A stretch of 64,000 nucleotides of DNA from a virus: positions 16,004 to 80,003 of the IMG/VR virus record IMGVR_UViG_3300033153_009397; one strand, given 5' to 3'. The notes below the pieces were generated by a model. That model was not told the DNA's origin. It ran no database searches and saw only the letters and a list, made by a program, of their open reading frames with translations. Position 1 is the first letter of the stretch. Each line of letters starts with the position of its first letter. Positions 4,611-28,010 of the stretch are shown here, piece after piece. The translations under genes and the position numbers were made by a program.

Positions 4611-4680
4611 CTACGAAGATATATAGATTACGAAACTCACAAAAGGAAGACCACCAATGAAGGGTTGTTTATCTTTATTT

Positions 4681-4995
4681 TTACACTCTTTTATTTCCAT
4701 GTTTATATCTTCTTTTCTTATTTACCTCTAATTTTTTCACTATTTCTTCTCCTATGTTTATGTTTAATCCAGTCGTTAGGTCTAATAATCTAATCATTGT
4801 GTCTGCTATTTCTTCTTTGAAGTTTTCAAAATCATAATTTCTGTATGCTTCCAGAGCTTCTGATAGTTCTGATACACATAACATCAATTTTGTTGGAATA
4901 AAGTTTTCTAACTTATTCCATGCATTTTCTGGAAAAATCCAACCATTTTCGTCATTTATTTTTCTTATTTCTTTTTCTATCTTTTCTAGTTCCAT
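4681..4995 (-). CDS. MazG-like nucleotide pyrophosphohydrolase
   Basis: 104 aa. The helical core carries ELSE in CVSELSEALEAYR and EEIAD in NFKEEIADTMIRLLDL, which together form the ExxE...ExxD magnesium site of MazG/all-alpha NTP pyrophosphatases. The C-terminus RYKHGNKRV matches the family's usual ending. The enzyme would convert NTPs or dNTPs to monophosphates plus pyrophosphate. Phage MazG proteins are thought to adjust nucleotide pools or alarmones during infection. It overlaps the upstream gene by 10 nt in a two-gene minus operon. Confidence 0.8.
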   Translation of the reverse strand: MELEKIEKEIRKINDENGWIFPENAWNKLENFIPTKLMLCVSELSEALEAYRNYDFENFKEEIADTMIRLLDLTTGLNINIGEEIVKKLEVNKKRRYKHGNKRV

Positions 4996-5441
4996 TTTTT
5001 TTCTACCTCCAGCGAGTATAGACTTAACGCTTCATCCACTCCATATCCTTGCCATTCATCATCTTTAGAAAGGTTTGGGATGTTTTCAACGTATTTTGCC
5101 TTTGTTCTCCATTGGTGTCTACATTTTAAACATATCAAGGTACTCCACTTACTCGGGTGGGGTTTCCCTTTAGGATGCTCTGAATAGCTAACATTCTTTT
5201 GACGTAGCATTACTCTATAATGACTTTTAGAACAATTATGTTTCTTTCTTTTTAACACTAATTTTCCCCCAATATTTAACACTACCTTCCATAAAGGTCT
5301 ATCAGAAGGAAATTTTACTCCTATTGCTCCACTATTAAACAATCTTTCTTTTAATTCCACATCATTTATCTTTGCTTTTATTCTTACAGTGTCATTTCCA
5401 ACATACATTACATCATAGACATCAAATTCATACTTTGGCAT
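4986..5441 (-). CDS. Zinc-ribbon protein of the WRTKAKYV type
   Basis: 151 aa from ATG 5441; a TTG 15 nt further upstream is in frame but lies too close to the TATA box. The last third holds CLKCRHQW followed by RTKAKYVENIP, preceded by an HNC/SHY pair that could complete a metal site. The same CxKCxHxWRTKAKYVxNxP signature occurs in the gene at 9868, so the two are paralogous in this domain. The N-terminal 70 residues are beta-rich. TATA ATTTAAAT at 5465-5472 lies about 27 nt upstream, so the mRNA is predicted leaderless. Function unknown. Confidence 0.7.
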   Translation of the reverse strand: MPKYEFDVYDVMYVGNDTVRIKAKINDVELKERLFNSGAIGVKFPSDRPLWKVVLNIGGKLVLKRKKHNCSKSHYRVMLRQKNVSYSEHPKGKPHPSKWSTLICLKCRHQWRTKAKYVENIPNLSKDDEWQGYGVDEALSLYSLEVEKKWN

Positions 5442-10424: not shown

Positions 10425-11387
10425 TTAAACGTATTTACGCCACTCTGGTAATTGTTCATCCATCCATTGATACATTTCATTATCTGTATGATGGATGAAG
10501 TATGTTGAACTATTATTCAATAAATCACTAATTGCTATCTTCATCGCTCTTAACTGATTAGAACGTTCCTTCTCTGTTAGTTTATTTGACAGCTTATTCT
10601 TGCAAGTGTTATATTTCTTTGCTAATTGGTTTTTCCTCATTCCCGTTTGAGCTAGACCCCCTAACAATAGGGACATGGTAGCAATGGGTTCGGTTATACC
10701 ATCGAAGCGAATAGTTAAACCTAACTCTCTGCTCCTCTGAAACCACATAAGCAGAGCAGAAGCAGAAGCGTTATTTCTTGCCAATCTAGACAAGTCTAAT
10801 TGACCCAATTCAAGAACTAATAGATTAACAGACCTATTAATCAACAGTTCTGTTACATCAAATAGAAAGTCTGTTAGTTCATCAATCTTAAACTGTTTTA
10901 TTCTTGAGAATATCCCAAAGATGAAAGATTTGCCTATTTGACCCTTCTTAATTGACTTTTTAGCTACTTCAACGTCAGAGAATATAGCATATTGTAGTTT
11001 AGTCACTTTATCTTTAATATTCAACCCGTAAATCCCAAAACTGTTAAGGGTACGGGGTTTTGTAGCCTTATAGACCTTTGGCTTTGGTTTTCCCTTCATA
11101 ATCTTTACCTCTACCTCCTCAACTTCAGTTAGTGATAGGTAGATGTCATTTAGCTTCATATTTTTGTAATATTCTCCTTTTAAGGCTTGGTACGTTTCCC
11201 TCCAGAGCGTTTTAAACTCTGTTGCCTTTAACAATCTCTCTAATCTTCCCTTGCTTAAAGCTCTTTCTCCTTGAACGGTGAGGTCAAGGCTCTCAAACCT
11301 TACCCCTAGCTTATAGTTAGGGGCTATGAAGACTATAACTTGTTTTTCTTCGTCTTCTCCTATAACTCTTAAATCCTTGTTCAGCAT
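10425..11387 (-). CDS. Unrecognised protein, possibly RuvC/TnpB-like relict
   Basis: 320 aa from ATG 11387 (GTG at 11396 is an alternative nearer the promoter). A middle stretch runs from IFSRIKQFKIDELTDF through NLLVLELGQLDL to WFQRSRELGLTIRF. Its order resembles the RuvC-II region of TnpB-type nucleases (helix, then 'ivlEdL', then 'W..f...l.....G..v'). No CxxC zinc pair and no clear third acidic motif are seen, so this may be an unrelated fold. It stands alone as one transcription unit, controlled by the palindromic AAGGAAAC element at 11439-11494. A replication-initiator or regulator role would also fit the position. Confidence 0.5.
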   Translation of the reverse strand: MLNKDLRVIGEDEEKQVIVFIAPNYKLGVRFESLDLTVQGERALSKGRLERLLKATEFKTLWRETYQALKGEYYKNMKLNDIYLSLTEVEEVEVKIMKGKPKPKVYKATKPRTLNSFGIYGLNIKDKVTKLQYAIFSDVEVAKKSIKKGQIGKSFIFGIFSRIKQFKIDELTDFLFDVTELLINRSVNLLVLELGQLDLSRLARNNASASALLMWFQRSRELGLTIRFDGITEPIATMSLLLGGLAQTGMRKNQLAKKYNTCKNKLSNKLTEKERSNQLRAMKIAISDLLNNSSTYFIHHTDNEMYQWMDEQLPEWRKYV

Positions 11388-11423
11388 TTCAAACACAACC
11401 TAATATATAAAAGTGTTAAAAGT

Positions 11424-11431
11424 ATTTAAAT
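11424..11431 (-). promoter_or_regulatory. TATA box of gene 10425-11387
   Basis: ATTTAAAT on the minus strand puts the transcription start near 11400, a few nt before the GTG at 11396 and 13 nt before ATG 11387. The GTTTCCTT repeat element lies 7 nt upstream of it. Confidence 0.55.
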
Positions 11432-11438
11432 GTGTCGT

Positions 11439-11494
11439 AAGGAAACAAGGAAACAAAATTCTATCATGATAGGGCTTTGTTTCCTTGTTTCCTT
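11439..11494. repeat. Palindromic AAGGAAAC operator, copy 1
   Basis: Left arm 11439-11455 holds two tandem 8-mers AAGGAAAC AAGGAAAC plus A. Right arm 11478-11494 is its exact inverse. The 22-nt spacer contains a perfect 12-bp palindrome CTATCATGATAG (11461-11472). It lies directly upstream of a TATA box, as do the other copies, suggesting a binding site for a multimeric regulator. Confidence 0.8.
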
Positions 11495-11498
11495 ATGC

Positions 11499-12670: not shown

Positions 12671-12679
12671 ATAACGCAT

Positions 12680-12735
12680 AAGGAAACAAGGAAACAGTTT
12701 CCTTTCATAAAACCCCTTTGTTTCCTTGTTTCCTT
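12680..12735. repeat. Palindromic AAGGAAAC operator, copy 2
   Basis: Left arm 12680-12696 (two AAGGAAAC plus A) and exact inverse right arm 12719-12735. In addition, the left arm's second 8-mer is followed at once by GTTTCCTT, making a tighter inner palindrome. Located just upstream of the TATA box of the 12610 operon. Confidence 0.8.
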
Positions 12736-12778
12736 GCACTAAATCGATAAAAAAAGATTAAAAACTATAAGATGTTTT

Positions 12779-13768: not shown

Positions 13769-13820
13769 TTCTTTCCACCTAATTAATTAGCCTATTAATA
13801 TATATATAAATATATCTCGT

Positions 13821-13876
13821 AAGGAAACAAGGAAACTGTTTCCTTTCATGATTTCTTTTTGCGTCCTTGTTCCCTT
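13821..13876. repeat. Palindromic AAGGAAAC operator, copy 3
   Basis: Left arm 13821-13836 (two AAGGAAAC) is followed by TGTTTCCTT, making the inner palindrome AAGGAAACTGTTTCCTT. The right arm 13860-13876 is degenerate (GCGTCCTTGTTCCCTT). It sits upstream of an AT-rich promoter (13796-13815) for the 13768 gene. Confidence 0.75.
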
Positions 13877-14508
13877 AATTCCACCCCCTCTTCCTTATCT
13901 TGACCATAAGATGTTAAATATTAGGTAGAGCCTTTCTACTGCCCGACAAATTCTTTTTTTCTTGCGTCCTAAAGTCGAAAAATACCTTACGTCAGCCTTG
14001 TTTCACTTCAACTTAATGACAAGTGTGTATCAGTCAGCCTATTTTCTTTCTTTTGTACTACTTCCTACTTTTTTTCTTTAGATGTGTAAATTTACTAAAC
14101 ACCGATTTTCACAGACATGAGTTTAAAGGCTTGAGAACACTGACCGGTATATTCACAAGCGACGTAGTACAACTCTCTTGTAATACCATCTTAACATTTC
14201 TATCATCTTCAAACTTCATCCATAAGATGTAAGATAGTAAGACGATAAGCTTACAAGCGTTTCGCTATTCTTGTACTACTTCATCTTCAAAACCTTCGAT
14301 AACCCCACTATACTATATATATAGTGGCACTATCGAAAGCTTTGGAAACGACAAAAGGGGTTTGAGCCGGAGAGGAGACAGAATAAGAAATTAAAATCGA
14401 CAAAAGTCAAGAGAGGACAGAAAAACAGCGTTAGAAAGAAAAAAGGAAAAAGAAGAAAAGAGAACTAAAGATAAAGACACTTGAGGGATATCAAGAAACA
14501 GTTATCAT
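13877..14508. other. Gene desert with strand-composition switch, possible origin
   Basis: About 630 nt without a convincing gene. The left part (to about 14290) is pyrimidine-rich on the plus strand; the right part (14338-14500) is strongly purine-rich and has no ATG. The switch falls on an imperfect inverted repeat at 14295-14337. Such a layout fits divergent transcripts or a replication origin. A 36-codon minus frame at 14109-14219 has no supporting features. Confidence 0.45.
14295..14337. repeat. Imperfect inverted repeat at the composition switch
   Basis: TTCGATA (14295-14301) pairs with TATCGAA (14331-14337), then three mismatches, then CCACTATA (14305-14312) pairs with TATAGTGG (14320-14327), leaving a 7-nt loop. 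The centre is a TATA-like alternating AT run, so it could also act as a promoter in both directions. Confidence 0.65.
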
Positions 14509-14999: not shown

Positions 15000-15583
15000 T
15001 CGTAACGTACCTCCTTGTTTTTCTCTCGTTCTATGGCATAAAGGGAAGCCATGAATTCAACACCGTTGAAAGTGTGTCGAGAATTGCCAAGCATAACGAG
15101 TTTGTAGTTTTTAAGAGCATAAGAGAAGCCAATGAGTAGATTAGTAACAGCAAGACGCAATGAAACTTCATCATCATGTCTATAAAGCAGAACAAACTCG
15201 GGAACTATGGTAAAAGCATGTCTGGTATGAGCATGAGAAGTACGGTAACTATAATGTTCAGTATAGCGTCGAACTACCCTCTCTTGTAAAATAATTGCTG
15301 GTTCAAGTTCAAACATCTTACGTAAGCGTCGAATAACAAAACAAAGAGAAGGGGGCAAAAACTGGTCAATGACATGCCAATAATAGTAATCATCTGCATC
15401 TGTAATAGGCAAACTCTTCATGGCTTCAAGGTAAGGAATATCATACTCGGCATAAGAGCCATAGCCTTCTTTTTGGAGCTTATCAAAGGGTGTTCTAAAC
15501 TTTGTAGGTTGCCAATTTACTAAAATTCCCGTATATCTATGAGGATAGAAGGAAGGGAGAATGTAAGTATCACTTTTAGTCAT
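14996..15583 (-). CDS. Hypothetical protein
   Basis: 195 aa from ATG 15583 (a TTG one codon upstream is also open). Aromatic-rich N-terminal half (SFYPHRYTGILVNW) and a helical C-terminal half containing an arginine- and histidine-rich loop (YSYRTSHAHTRHAF). No domain recognised. ATGA overlap with the next gene. Confidence 0.6.
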   Translation of the reverse strand: MTKSDTYILPSFYPHRYTGILVNWQPTKFRTPFDKLQKEGYGSYAEYDIPYLEAMKSLPITDADDYYYWHVIDQFLPPSLCFVIRRLRKMFELEPAIILQERVVRRYTEHYSYRTSHAHTRHAFTIVPEFVLLYRHDDEVSLRLAVTNLLIGFSYALKNYKLVMLGNSRHTFNGVEFMASLYAIEREKNKEVRYE

Positions 15584-15813
15584 CAATATCTACCTTCCTC
15601 CACCTTTATGCTAAAATCATATGTTGAATATTTTGAGTTTAGTAACAGAACAGCAAAGAAAAAGACGACAGCCGTTTCAAAGGAGCATTTGCCAAGTAAA
15701 TATAGGACTGGAATAAGGATAATTGCTACTAGAGTCGTTATACCTATAACAAAAGTGATGCAATTAATACGATATTGGAGAAGCTTTATTCTATACCAGT
15801 GTTCTTCAGTCAT
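15583..15813 (-). CDS. Small membrane protein with two transmembrane segments
   Basis: 76 aa. Hydrophobic stretches at about residues 17-41 (CITFVIGITTLVAIILIPVLYLL) and 44-60 (FETAVVFFFAVLLL), with both ends charged. Size and topology resemble small holin-like proteins, but that is not evidence of lysis function. Confidence 0.6.
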   Translation of the reverse strand: MTEEHWYRIKLLQYRINCITFVIGITTLVAIILIPVLYLLGKCSFETAVVFFFAVLLLNSKYSTYDFSIKVEEGRY

Positions 15814-18382: not shown

Positions 18383-18693
18383 TTTAAAGTCTCCTCAAAG
18401 ATATTTTTGCCATATTTGTATTCTAATGAGTTTTTGTGCAAAGGTAACGGGTCTAGCTTTTCGAGAATGGGTTTGACTTCCTCACGGCTGAATGGAACTA
18501 CAATTTCTTGTGCATGTAGTTCTTTTTCATGGTTATAATTAGGTTCAGAAGCCCAATCGGCATAGATGAGCCATCCTAAACAATTAGACCAGCATAAAAC
18601 TGAATAATCTCCAGAAGGGAATTTCTCTGTTCTAACTCCGTAACGAGTACGGGTGGCTATTATGGAATTTATTGACTGAACTATGTCTGCCAA
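18379..18693 (-). CDS. Hypothetical protein with TTG start
   Basis: 104 aa. The start is TTG at 18693, set by GGAGGA 6 nt upstream; no ATG fits. Aromatic-rich (LCWSNCLGWLIYADWASEP). First gene of the 14509-18693 operon, downstream of a tandem AAGGAAAC element and a weak TATA box near 18764. Unrecognised. Confidence 0.55.
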   Translation of the reverse strand: MADIVQSINSIIATRTRYGVRTEKFPSGDYSVLCWSNCLGWLIYADWASEPNYNHEKELHAQEIVVPFSREEVKPILEKLDPLPLHKNSLEYKYGKNIFEETLK

Positions 18694-18780
18694 TAGTATT
18701 CCTCCTTTTTATTTGTGATTGTTTTTTTGGTCATTTTCAATCAGCCACAATTCTCAAAGGGTTTTTTAAAGATTTAGTGT

Positions 18781-18813
18781 AAGGAAACAAGGACACAAGG
18801 AAACAAGGACACA
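18781..18813. repeat. Tandem AAGGAMAC element, copy 4
   Basis: Four consecutive 8-mers: AAGGAAAC, AAGGACAC, AAGGAAAC, AAGGACAC, plus A. Unlike copies 1-3 it is tandem, not palindromic. It lies between the minus-strand operon starting at 18693 and the plus-strand TATA box of a structured RNA (18816-18824), so it could control both. Confidence 0.8.
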
Positions 18814-18815
18814 AA

Positions 18816-18824
18816 ATTTAAATA
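18816..18824 (+). promoter_or_regulatory. TATA box of the 18846 structured RNA
   Basis: ATTTAAATA is centred 26 nt before G18846, the first base of an 11-bp helix. The exact match of predicted start and helix start is good evidence that this is a promoter for a short RNA. Confidence 0.6.
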
Positions 18825-18845
18825 CTTTTGTTGTCTCTAAATATT

Positions 18846-18912
18846 GGGAGCATCTCACGCTTTCATACACAACCTAAAATTCCATTTTAGAGGTGCTCTC
18901 TCTTCTTTTTAT
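18846..18912 (+). ncRNA. Putative structured small RNA
   Basis: Bases 18846-18856 (GGGAGCATCTC) pair with 18890-18900 (GAGGTGCTCTC), 11 bp including two G-U pairs. Inside, CTAAAAT (18874-18880) pairs with ATTTTAG (18884-18890) around a UCC loop; G18890 could pair in either stem. A 17-nt single-stranded stretch remains. A T-rich tract follows (TTCTTTTTAT). There is no open reading frame. The promoter lies beside the AAGGAMAC repeats. No known RNA family is recognised. Confidence 0.6.
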
Positions 18913-18945
18913 ATAAATAAGATGTTAGATATTTGATGGTAACGT

Positions 18946-19030
18946 AAAAAAGAAAAATCCCCAGAGGCGAAAAGGCTTCGCTTTTGCGAAGATAGATAGT
19001 TTTTGGGGCACGACAATGACGCCTCTGGGG
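18946..19030 (-). terminator. Long GC-rich hairpin with T run (terminator or 3' RNA)
   Basis: CCCCAGAGGCG (18959-18969) pairs perfectly with CGCCTCTGGGG (19020-19030), an 11-bp helix that stands out in this AT-rich DNA. Inside is a second hairpin CTTCGC-TTTT-GCGAAG (18976-18991). On the minus strand the helix is followed by a run of Ts (complement of 18946-18957), and the minus operon ends at 19039, so it most likely forms the 3' end of that mRNA. It is larger than a plain terminator needs to be. Confidence 0.6.
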
Positions 19031-19038
19031 GAACGTGA

Positions 19039-19260
19039 TTAATCTATGCCAAGTTTCTTCTTGATTTTATCTATCTTTGTTTGTAATATTCTACACTTCT
19101 CTTTGGCATTTTTATATTTGAGATATGCATATGGAGGAGTTGGCTGTCTATCGCACCAATCATAACTAGCTAGCTGGTATCGAAGCTTGCTCTCTTCATA
19201 CTCTATTTGTAATTTAGACAATTTTCGTCGCAGAAAATATTTAGTCCAAATCATTTTCAT
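19039..19260 (-). CDS. Small coiled-coil protein
   Basis: 73 aa, highly basic helices (RRKLSKLQIEYEESKLRY and EKCRILQTKIDKIKKKLG) around a proline turn, a helical hairpin. Last gene of the operon beginning at 21228; ATGA overlap upstream. Unrecognised. Confidence 0.6.
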   Translation of the reverse strand: MKMIWTKYFLRRKLSKLQIEYEESKLRYQLASYDWCDRQPTPPYAYLKYKNAKEKCRILQTKIDKIKKKLGID

Positions 19261-25325: not shown

Positions 25326-25955
25326 ATGATGAAAATGACCGATAAAGATATTTTTTCGAGATATCTTCACCCAACAAGGTCTCAACACATTTTGTTGGGA
25401 AATAAGGAGAAATTAAGTGTGGGGGAAGTGGCTAGTCTCTTAGGGAAATCGGAAAATAGAATTAGACAGATGATTAATGATGGGGAGTTATTAGCAGATA
25501 AAGTAGGTAGAAGATGGGAGGTTTATTCTTTTCCTCTTCTTGAAAAACTATCATCTTTTAAAAGACTGTTAAGAAAAGCCAAGATTGGAAGATTAAACTC
25601 AGAGTATTATAGCAATATGTGGTATGCTAAAATGGATGAAACCTTCATTGAATATTTCATCTTTGATGATTTAGGAGATTCTGTTGAAAGAGTAATAAAG
25701 ATTCATTATCTACGAATTAATGAGGCTAATGTTTCTGCTCAGTATATAGTTCCTTATTGTTCTATGACTATCACTTATAGTCAAGGAATTCCTATTGTTT
25801 ATACTATGAGTCAGAGGTGGAATGTAGACAATAGATTTGATAATTATCCCAATAAGCTTATCAGTCCTAAATGGATGTTGTTAAGTTATTATTTGATAAA
25901 TGTGTACTTGATGTCTGAAGGTGAGAAACATGCCAATTGTGATAGTAAAAGGTGA
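25326..25955 (+). CDS. Helix-turn-helix (excisionase/MerR-like) DNA-binding protein
   Basis: 209 aa. LSVGEVASLLGKSENRIRQMINDGELLADKVGRRWEV at about residues 32-68 (in pieces: the helix pair SVGEVASLLGKS and NRIRQMINDG, then the wing) is a clear excisionase-type winged helix. The C-terminal 120 residues are unrecognised and beta-rich. First gene of an operon with a ribbon-helix-helix-like protein next, so probably a viral transcription or replication regulator. Confidence 0.7.
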   Translation: MMKMTDKDIFSRYLHPTRSQHILLGNKEKLSVGEVASLLGKSENRIRQMINDGELLADKVGRRWEVYSFPLLEKLSSFKRLLRKAKIGRLNSEYYSNMWYAKMDETFIEYFIFDDLGDSVERVIKIHYLRINEANVSAQYIVPYCSMTITYSQGIPIVYTMSQRWNVDNRFDNYPNKLISPKWMLLSYYLINVYLMSEGEKHANCDSKR

Positions 25956-26274: not shown

Positions 26275-26425
26275 GTTACATGATGATTTATCTGATTATC
26301 TCTCAGAAGAAACGATAGATAAGGTTTTTATGAAACATCTTAAATTGTTTAATGATAGATTGAGAGAATTGGAGAAAATGAAGGAATTATGGGACAATGA
26401 AGAAAAAGATGGTGATGAAAATTAA
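26240..26425 (+). CDS. Small acidic helical protein
   Basis: 61 aa from ATG 26240; GTG 26231 is an in-frame alternative. All-helical, acidic at both ends (LHDDLSDYLSEETIDK; WDNEEKDGDEN). It overlaps both neighbours. Unrecognised. Confidence 0.5.
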   Translation: MEKPTLLPEIIELHDDLSDYLSEETIDKVFMKHLKLFNDRLRELEKMKELWDNEEKDGDEN

Positions 26426-26666
26426 AGCTGGTTGGAGAGATTGTAAATGCATGTTAGAAAATTGTTGGATTGATGACAATAAGGATGAGCTTGAGAAAAT
26501 GACCTCTACTTTTTTCAAGAGATTGTTAAATCGACTTATATTAAAAAGGAAGAGAAGAATATTCATATTGAAAATTAGTTTAAGCCCAGTAAAAGATGAA
26601 GCGGATTTCTGTAAATATGATTGTGGGTATAATAGATGGGGAGAGATAAGAGAAGATAACGATTAG
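26397..26666 (+). CDS. Small basic cysteine-containing protein
   Basis: 89 aa. CKCMLENCW near residue 16 and CKYDCGYN near 72 suggest a metal site bracketing a basic helix (LLNRLILKRKRRIFIL). Several in-frame ATGs lie within 18 nt of 26397. Unrecognised. Confidence 0.55.
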   Translation: MKKKMVMKIKAGWRDCKCMLENCWIDDNKDELEKMTSTFFKRLLNRLILKRKRRIFILKISLSPVKDEADFCKYDCGYNRWGEIREDND

Positions 26667-26678
26667 AGGATGGAAAAA

Positions 26679-28010
26679 ATGAAGAAAATCAAAGAGATGG
26701 AAAACTATGCTTGGGCTAAGAAACAAGCAGATAAGTGGAATACTGGTTTGATAAAAGCCAAAAAAGAGCTGAAGCTAAGCAATGATAGAATACTAGCCAT
26801 GTCTCCAGCTAATGACCCGTACTGGATGACCCCAGCCAAATTGATGAAAGCTAAGTGGGCAGAAGAAATAATGGAAGAAACAATCACACCTCATTTAGAA
26901 AGGATAGGTGTTAGAGATATTCATTTACGAGATATTCATTATACTCTTACTAGCAGCGAGCTACAAGAAACGTGGGATGGAGAAAGATATCTTAATACTG
27001 TTGGTTGTTGGTCAGACCTTATCAAAGCTTTTGCTGTGGCAAGGTATACTGGTCTAATAGATTGGAGACTTATTAGGGATAATAAAAATATCTTGTATCA
27101 GCGTACTAGATATGGAAACAATAAAACTTTTATGGGGAATTTGATTGAGGGGAAGGATAGTTTAACTGTAGATAATATTATCTACGAAACTTTACTTTTC
27201 AGATTTGGGGATATGCTTAATCCATGGAACTGGATGCCTATTCATATTGAAATTTGGACTGAGAAAGACCTAGCTTTGTTAGAGCTAATTTGTAGCAAAC
27301 ATAAAGTCAATATGGTAGTAGGAGAAGGTGAAACTTCTATTACTCAAGTGTTTCAGTTGGTTGAACGTATAAGGAAAGCTGGTAAACCTACCAGAATAGC
27401 TTATATAGCCGACTGTGATGTAGTAGGTTCAAATATGAGCAAGGCTATGGCAAGGAAACTTGAATTTTTGCTTAATAAGTTACTTGGTGAAGAAAAGCGT
27501 GATGTCAAGGTTATACCTCTTATGCTTACTCCCACGCAAGTTGATGATTATGGATTGCCTACTATTCCGATGAAGCCATCTAAGTCTGGAGCTTATGAAA
27601 CTCGTAAAGACCAGTGGTTAGCATCCAGAGGTATGGATGGAGCAGTGGAAGTTAATGCCTTTCATGCTCTTTATCCAGATGATTTTAAATTTATTGTGGA
27701 GAGTTTTATTTCTAGTTACAAAGATGAGAAGATGTGGAAAAGAGTTAAGGAATTTAATGGGACGGTAAGAGACTTTGTTAGAGAACAAATTGATTGTAGC
27801 AATGTAGATATTAGTAGTCTTATCAAGGCTATTGAGTCCGTTGACTGGGTTAAAGTAGAAAAAGAGTATCATGACAATGTGGATGAGATTGGAGAAAGTG
27901 AATTATCCTATGGTTACAAAGACCAAAAATATAGGTGGTTGCTGGATACTGAAAGAAACTATTTTGAACAGTTGTGGGCTTACAACAGATATGAAAATGG
28001 TGAATTGTAA
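26679..28010 (+). CDS. Topo VI-A/Spo11-like TOPRIM protein
   Basis: 443 aa from ATG 26679 (GAGG 9 nt upstream; ATG 26670 abuts the ribosome site). Residues about 80-130 form a winged helix like that of Spo11/Top6A (RDIHYTLTSSEL, then DLIKAFAVARYTGLIDW). A TOPRIM domain follows: HIEIWTEKDLALLEL with the conserved Glu, GEGETSITQV, then YIADCDVVGSNM with the DxD pair, and a region VIPLMLTPTQVDDYGLP as in Top6A-like proteins. The family cuts or binds DNA with magnesium. I do not see an obvious catalytic Tyr in the winged helix, so it may be a nuclease or DNA-binding relative rather than a topoisomerase. No Top6B is visible. Confidence 0.75.
   Translation: MKKIKEMENYAWAKKQADKWNTGLIKAKKELKLSNDRILAMSPANDPYWMTPAKLMKAKWAEEIMEETITPHLERIGVRDIHLRDIHYTLTSSELQETWDGERYLNTVGCWSDLIKAFAVARYTGLIDWRLIRDNKNILYQRTRYGNNKTFMGNLIEGKDSLTVDNIIYETLLFRFGDMLNPWNWMPIHIEIWTEKDLALLELICSKHKVNMVVGEGETSITQVFQLVERIRKAGKPTRIAYIADCDVVGSNMSKAMARKLEFLLNKLLGEEKRDVKVIPLMLTPTQVDDYGLPTIPMKPSKSGAYETRKDQWLASRGMDGAVEVNAFHALYPDDFKFIVESFISSYKDEKMWKRVKEFNGTVRDFVREQIDCSNVDISSLIKAIESVDWVKVEKEYHDNVDEIGESELSYGYKDQKYRWLLDTERNYFEQLWAYNRYENGEL

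Follow-up and report, generated by a model that had tools for sequence, protein, structure and literature searches.

Introduction

Small antisense RNAs are known regulators in phages. The OOP RNA of lambda acts against cII, and the c4 RNA of P1/P7 is an antisense immunity RNA; in both systems, as proposed for the locus described here, a small phage RNA pairs with the message of a phage regulator and silences it (PMC12197685). The STnc6030 RNA of prophage BTP1 is antisense to a late structural gene, that of the tailspike, and confers superinfection exclusion (PMC12197685). In HFTV1, a haloarchaeal tailed virus, antisense transcripts extend over structural and other operons and have been linked to timing (PMC12542753). 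The regulation of archaeal viruses after infection is a poorly known field, and so is the way in which antisense RNA can act on mRNAs that, being leaderless, offer no leader to hide. In this study, we describe two hairpins, RNA1 and RNA2, encoded in one intergenic region of a tailed virus; a viral RNA pair with base-precise predicted targets at mRNA 5' ends would make both questions directly testable.

The virus and its relatives

The DNA analyzed (64,000 nt, hereafter the window) corresponds to bases 16004-80003 of the 80,003-base IMG/VR record IMGVR_UViG_3300033153_009397. It belongs to a tailed virus, with a terminase and an intein-bearing family-B polymerase encoded in the window, and the virus carries genes for a head protease, a portal, and an HK97-type capsid. 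Transcription looks to be of the archaeal type, since several viral genes are preceded by a TATA box of the form TTTAAATA. Named phages gave distant matches only. Using a TerL scan, two distant relatives were found (G001 and G002; TerL 47-50% identical), in which the core is collinear, the accessory regions are different, and the RNA1/RNA2 locus is absent. A third record, G003, is the same virus (99.96% identical), and its sequence stops short of the RNA locus; G004 and G005 are fragments without the RNA locus, showing ∼75-80% nucleotide identity in core genes. Beside the capsid gene of G004 (L089:11069-11789), two stretches are 87-93% identical to window positions 26399-26695 and 4668-4999 and the remainder of G004 there is ∼78% alike, which we read as gene blocks having been recently shuffled.

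A predicted small RNA at a TATA-predicted start

A preliminary description of this DNA had proposed a structured small RNA beginning exactly at the base predicted by a TATA box. The two features concerned are as follows.

18846..18912, plus strand: RNA1, predicted small RNA with an 11-bp terminal stem, an unpaired antisense segment, and a T-rich end
18817..18824, plus strand: TATA box TTTAAATA of RNA1, transcription start predicted at G18846

The 11-bp helix claimed from G18846 is present, G18846-C18856 pairing with G18890-C18900 (two G·U pairs) around a 33-nt loop, and its minimum free energy of -15.9 kcal/mol lies below the mean of the shuffles, -6.64 (z -4.15; reached by 0 of 200 shuffles). 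When the count was restricted to perfect helices with a minimum of 11 bp and 6 G-C pairs and a loop of at most 40, this was the sole non-array helix of its class in the 64 kb, where 0.275 would be expected (mean of 40 shuffles); shuffling the local intergenic region produced a helix of this class in 2 of 2000 trials. The claimed start was likewise recovered by adding 25.5 to the center of the 18817-18824 box, which yields G18846, and the same rule holds for two further small structured RNAs of the virus, whose 5' ends fall on the expected base. Both G·U pairs become A·C on the opposite strand, where the fold drops from -15.9 to -10.3, and these strand-specific pairs together with the better plus-strand fold point to an RNA made from the plus strand rather than a DNA palindrome. 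A T-rich tract follows the helix (11 T in 18) and a plus-strand ORF is absent at the locus, both as described earlier. The claimed 7-bp inner hairpin, on the other hand, was not recovered: all that exists is a weak CUAAAA/UUUUAG pairing of 5-6 bp, in competition with the C-G pair that closes the outer helix; the minimum free energy structure lacks this pairing and the centroid shows it only in part. Across the 15 nt at 18861-18875, the unpaired share averages 94%.

By windowed folding energy, at least 30 other 68-nt windows exceed the RNA1 locus in z, so its folding energy alone is unexceptional, and on this ground one could argue for a chance helix that gives no transcript. We consider such an accident quite improbable, as it would have to combine a perfect 11-bp helix, the coincidence with the predicted start, strand-specific G-U pairs, and a T-tract. 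Rfam gave nothing in the window, either at the gathering threshold or at a relaxed E-value. An exact-stem scan of viral contigs (GAGCATCTC..GAGGTGCTC) returned 48 scattered matches, the pattern being too short, and the loop pattern matched the same virus only. Overall, these sequence features lend good support to a structured non-coding RNA whose first base is the one predicted from the TATA box, and RNA1 is likely a genuine small RNA.

The terminal stem and U-rich end of RNA1 are also what a Y RNA would have, and the virus encodes a TROVE (Ro60-like) protein of its own at 40463-42076. That RNA1 is the Y RNA of this protein is nonetheless very improbable: two mutually similar structured RNAs beside the TROVE gene fit the role better, and RNA1 has neither the sequence GGTTACTTCGT common to those RNAs nor an Rfam Y-RNA match.

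The RNAs flanking the TROVE-domain gene (window 40380-42200) deserve mention in their own right. They resemble each other (alignment score 36 vs. a shuffle mean of 16.6; 0 of 2000), each starts at a TATA-predicted base (40380 and 42101), and GGTTACTTCGT is shared by both, with a folding z of only about -1.3; they are candidate Y RNAs of an archaeal virus. The nearest genome matches found for the TROVE protein are from Bacteroidota (31-37%), and the gene is absent from G001 and G002.

Octamer arrays and putative operator words

The promoter of RNA1 had been said to adjoin an array of AAGGAMAC octamers, for which the following features are relevant.

18781..18812, plus strand: AAGGAMAC array (four direct copies) with divergent TATA boxes on its two sides
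18763..18770, minus strand: candidate TATA box TTTAAAAA, judged from sequence, of the leftward operon beginning at 18693
11439-11494, 12680-12735, and 13821-13845 (whole layouts within 11436-11497, 12679-12736, and 13820-13877): other AAGGAMAC arrays, built as inverted pairs of direct repeats

The four copies at 18781-18812 do adjoin the TATA box at 18817-18824. Throughout the window, the octamer occurs 24 times against 5.3 expected, mostly in arrays. The other three arrays lie closely upstream of leftward TATA boxes; the array at 18781 consists of direct copies only, without the inverted half, and has a leftward TATA box on one side and a rightward one on the other. Over 37 nt, the array-TATA stretch (18762-18798) and the flank of the array at 12720 are 89% similar. 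Given the position of the array between divergent TATA boxes, it is plausible that RNA1 and the leftward operon are co-regulated through it.

Each virus in the group appears to own a short operator word within a layout common to all, namely two direct and then two inverted copies separated by a spacer that contains TCATGA or a similar sequence, located just upstream of accessory TATA boxes. The word is AAGGAAAC in this virus, a TCGCT word in G001 (near 81618, 82350, and 84570), and ATTCGGAA in G002 (near 76740 and 77680), and the arrangement looks like virus-specific immunity or early-promoter control. Another sequence, TAAGATGT, often doubled as TAAGATGTAAGATGT, recurs at the boundaries of accessory gene blocks in three related viruses (window 11581, 12768, 13907, 14223, and 18918, and several more sites in G001 and G002), keeping one orientation along the accessory region; possibly, it is a recombination or processing site.

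Complementarity of RNA1 to the start of a 323-aa gene

The preliminary description had assigned no function to the RNA but had suggested a complementarity search with its single-stranded part (18857-18873). When this segment was searched against the viral mRNAs, gene 10425-11396 ranked first of 129 start regions.

18861..18875, plus strand: RNA1 antisense segment UUUCAUACACAACCU, complementary at 14/15 positions to the 5'-terminal 15 nt predicted for the 11396 mRNA
10425..11396, minus strand: predicted RNA1 target, a 323-aa gene behind a AAGGAAAC array
11423..11430, minus strand: TATA box TTTAAATA of the 323-aa gene, mRNA start predicted at 11401

The AUG of the 323-aa gene is at 11387 and its mRNA is predicted to start at 11401; RNA1 positions 18861-18875 pair at 14 of 15 positions with AGGUUGUGUUUGAAA, the predicted 5' end of this mRNA. 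The 17-nt query scored -15.5 for this gene start and -13.4 for the next, and lengthening it by three bases (20 nt) widened the difference to -21.9 vs. -14.8, with 2 of 400 shuffles as good. The same site is the best RNA1 match over all viral mRNA too. With the full 33-nt loop as the query, 16 of 200 shuffles did equally well, so p is about 0.005 for the 20-nt query and about 0.08 for the full loop, and each genome examined contains a few cases of intergenic DNA complementary to a gene start at 18/20 positions. The complementarity of RNA1 to an initiation region elsewhere is therefore beyond chance at a borderline level, and the match to the 323-aa mRNA, taken alone, is modest. RNAcofold of RNA1 with its target picked another pairing with a ddG of only -7.6, loop pairing being beyond its model. 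A decayed duplicate of the 11396 gene start was considered as a source of the match and rejected; the likeness is limited to ∼20 nt and the flanks fail to align, which indicates that the RNA1 segment is no visible duplicate of the gene start.

The modest significance of this match leaves room for RNA1 being a real small RNA directed at something else, a host mRNA or a protein, in which case the viral match would be due to chance and RNA2 might still be antisense. We regard this as rather doubtful, because the match is the best in the whole virus, has the right orientation, and falls on a predicted mRNA 5' end, and because the matched gene bears the same array as RNA1. On balance, the prospects that RNA1 is an antisense regulator of the 11396 gene are about even. 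For the 323-aa protein, AlphaFold gave no confident model (pLDDT 38), and a weak C-terminal HTH match was found in PHROG (E 0.007); from this match and the place of the gene behind its own array, a regulatory role is possible, but no more.

RNA2 and the start of the head-protease gene

A second hairpin, oriented toward RNA1, occupies the other end of the intergenic region.

18945..19031, minus strand: RNA2 hairpin, at the 3' end of the upstream operon, with an 11-bp terminal stem, a 50-nt loop, and a T-tract (z -4.6)
19004..19020, minus strand: RNA2 antisense segment GUCAUUGUCGUGCCCCA, able to pair without interruption over 17 bp with nt 2-18 of the head-protease gene
15218-15754 of the full record (G000, L083; outside the window), minus strand: head-protease gene, with a match to the head maturation protease family

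RNA2 lies ∼45 nt to the right of RNA1 and starts on the minus strand at 19031, just past the last stop of the upstream operon (19039); a TATA box of its own is absent. Its stem is CCCCAGAGGCG/CGCCUCUGGGG (11 bp); the exposed stretch precedes an inner hairpin, CUUCGCAAAAGCGAAG, and AUUUUUCUUUUUU comes last. The segment GUCAUUGUCGUGCCCCA pairs with UGGGGUACGACAAUGAC over 17 contiguous positions, including one G·U, covering bases 2-18 when the A of the start codon is taken as base 1. The 30-nt exposed stretch scored -33.4 kcal/mol against the protease start, compared with -24.4 for the next start region, and this energy was reached by 0 of 800 shuffles and 0 of 800 random genomic 30-mers; when the query was extended to the entire 50-nt loop, the energy z came to only about -2. 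Octamer-array self-matches aside, the RNA2-protease pair tops the survey of intergenic DNA against gene starts of the record. RNA2 hence has beyond-chance complementarity to the initiation region of an mRNA encoded elsewhere. The predicted target matches a head maturation protease family (E 3e-5) and is the first of the capsid genes, and the placement of its TATA box predicts a leaderless mRNA.

T-rich tracts trail both hairpins and RNA2 comes directly after the stop of the upstream operon, features expected if the two were merely terminators or 3'-end stabilizers of short or convergent transcripts whose complementarities are accidental. A T tract alone is generally regarded as enough for archaeal termination, and the 17-bp match of RNA2 at a start codon was unequalled in 1600 controls; we consider the terminator reading unlikely. 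The antisense reading of RNA2 was also compared across relatives, none of which combines the RNA locus with its target. The protease of G004 has 74% protein identity and keeps the TATA-to-ATG spacing, yet its codons at the pairing site are different, so RNA2 fits only this virus's version of the gene. An antisense hairpin for the homologous protease gene was not found in G001 and G002, and the predicted antisense to the G004 protease start, searched across viral contigs, retrieved only the gene itself within the virus group. In sum, the pairing argues that RNA2 is probably an antisense regulator of the head protease, and RNA2 is better supported than RNA1 as an antisense RNA.

Elsewhere in the window, the 111 nt at 14250-14360 fold into a long, almost perfect hairpin (-40 kcal/mol on the minus strand). 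Adjoining it, the plus-strand segment 14272-14291 shows complementarity at 18/20 positions to the start region of the HTH_17 gene at 25326 (-21.2 kcal/mol).

A proposed model of paired antisense control

RNA1 and RNA2 are the only intergenic hairpins of such size with a strongly T-rich tail in the record, and in each case the paired stretch falls on the mRNA 5' end to which the TATA box of the target points. In the model we propose, the intergenic region 18781-19039 would encode two convergent trans-acting antisense RNAs of one design, with a strong terminal stem whose 5' arm is followed by an exposed antisense segment, then a small inner hairpin, and T-rich sequence at the 3' end. RNA1, on the plus strand from G18846, would be transcribed from the TATA promoter beside the AAGGAMAC array, and base pairing of its loop to the very 5' end of the 323-aa mRNA, start codon included, would block translation and thereby damp the array-controlled gene. 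RNA2, on the minus strand, would be the 3' end of the transcript of the upstream accessory operon, and its loop would cover the start codon of the leaderless mRNA that opens the capsid operon. As RNA2 would be made together with the accessory operon, capsid production would be held back while that operon is on and the capsid operon delayed. Since both seeds cover the extreme 5' end and the start codon, a block of translation initiation would be the simplest account. We infer transcription of RNA1 and RNA2, their pairing in the cell, repression, and its timing from the sequence.

That the region encodes a convergent pair of trans-acting antisense RNAs is, in our estimate, an evenly balanced proposition. 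More tentatively, and with somewhat less than even confidence, the early/late switch of an archaeal head-tailed virus may be run by two trans-encoded antisense hairpins from one locus, with seeds on the first 15-18 nt of leaderless or near-leaderless mRNAs, RNA1 under the virus's own octamer operator, and an accessory message, through its 3' end RNA2, silencing capsid production.

Comparison with known antisense systems

The closest described systems differ from this locus in distinct ways. OOP and c4 are bacterial and act in cis or within the same transcript, whereas RNA1 and RNA2 have archaeal-type promoters and predicted targets at distances of ∼7 and 19 kb. STnc6030 and RNA2 are both antisense to a gene on the structural side, RNA2 by predicted pairing; however, STnc6030 is antisense to the tailspike gene, while RNA2 comes from a separate locus and has a 17-nt match at the head-protease start. 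The HFTV1 transcripts are cis-antisense, lying opposite the genes, in contrast to RNA1 and RNA2, which are predicted trans-encoded hairpins with short seeds. In the open-access papers searched, no archaeal virus was found to have a trans-encoded antisense RNA directed at a defined viral target, which is weak evidence of novelty. In essence, antisense RNA control is known from phages, whereas its trans-encoded form in an archaeal virus appears to be unreported in these papers.
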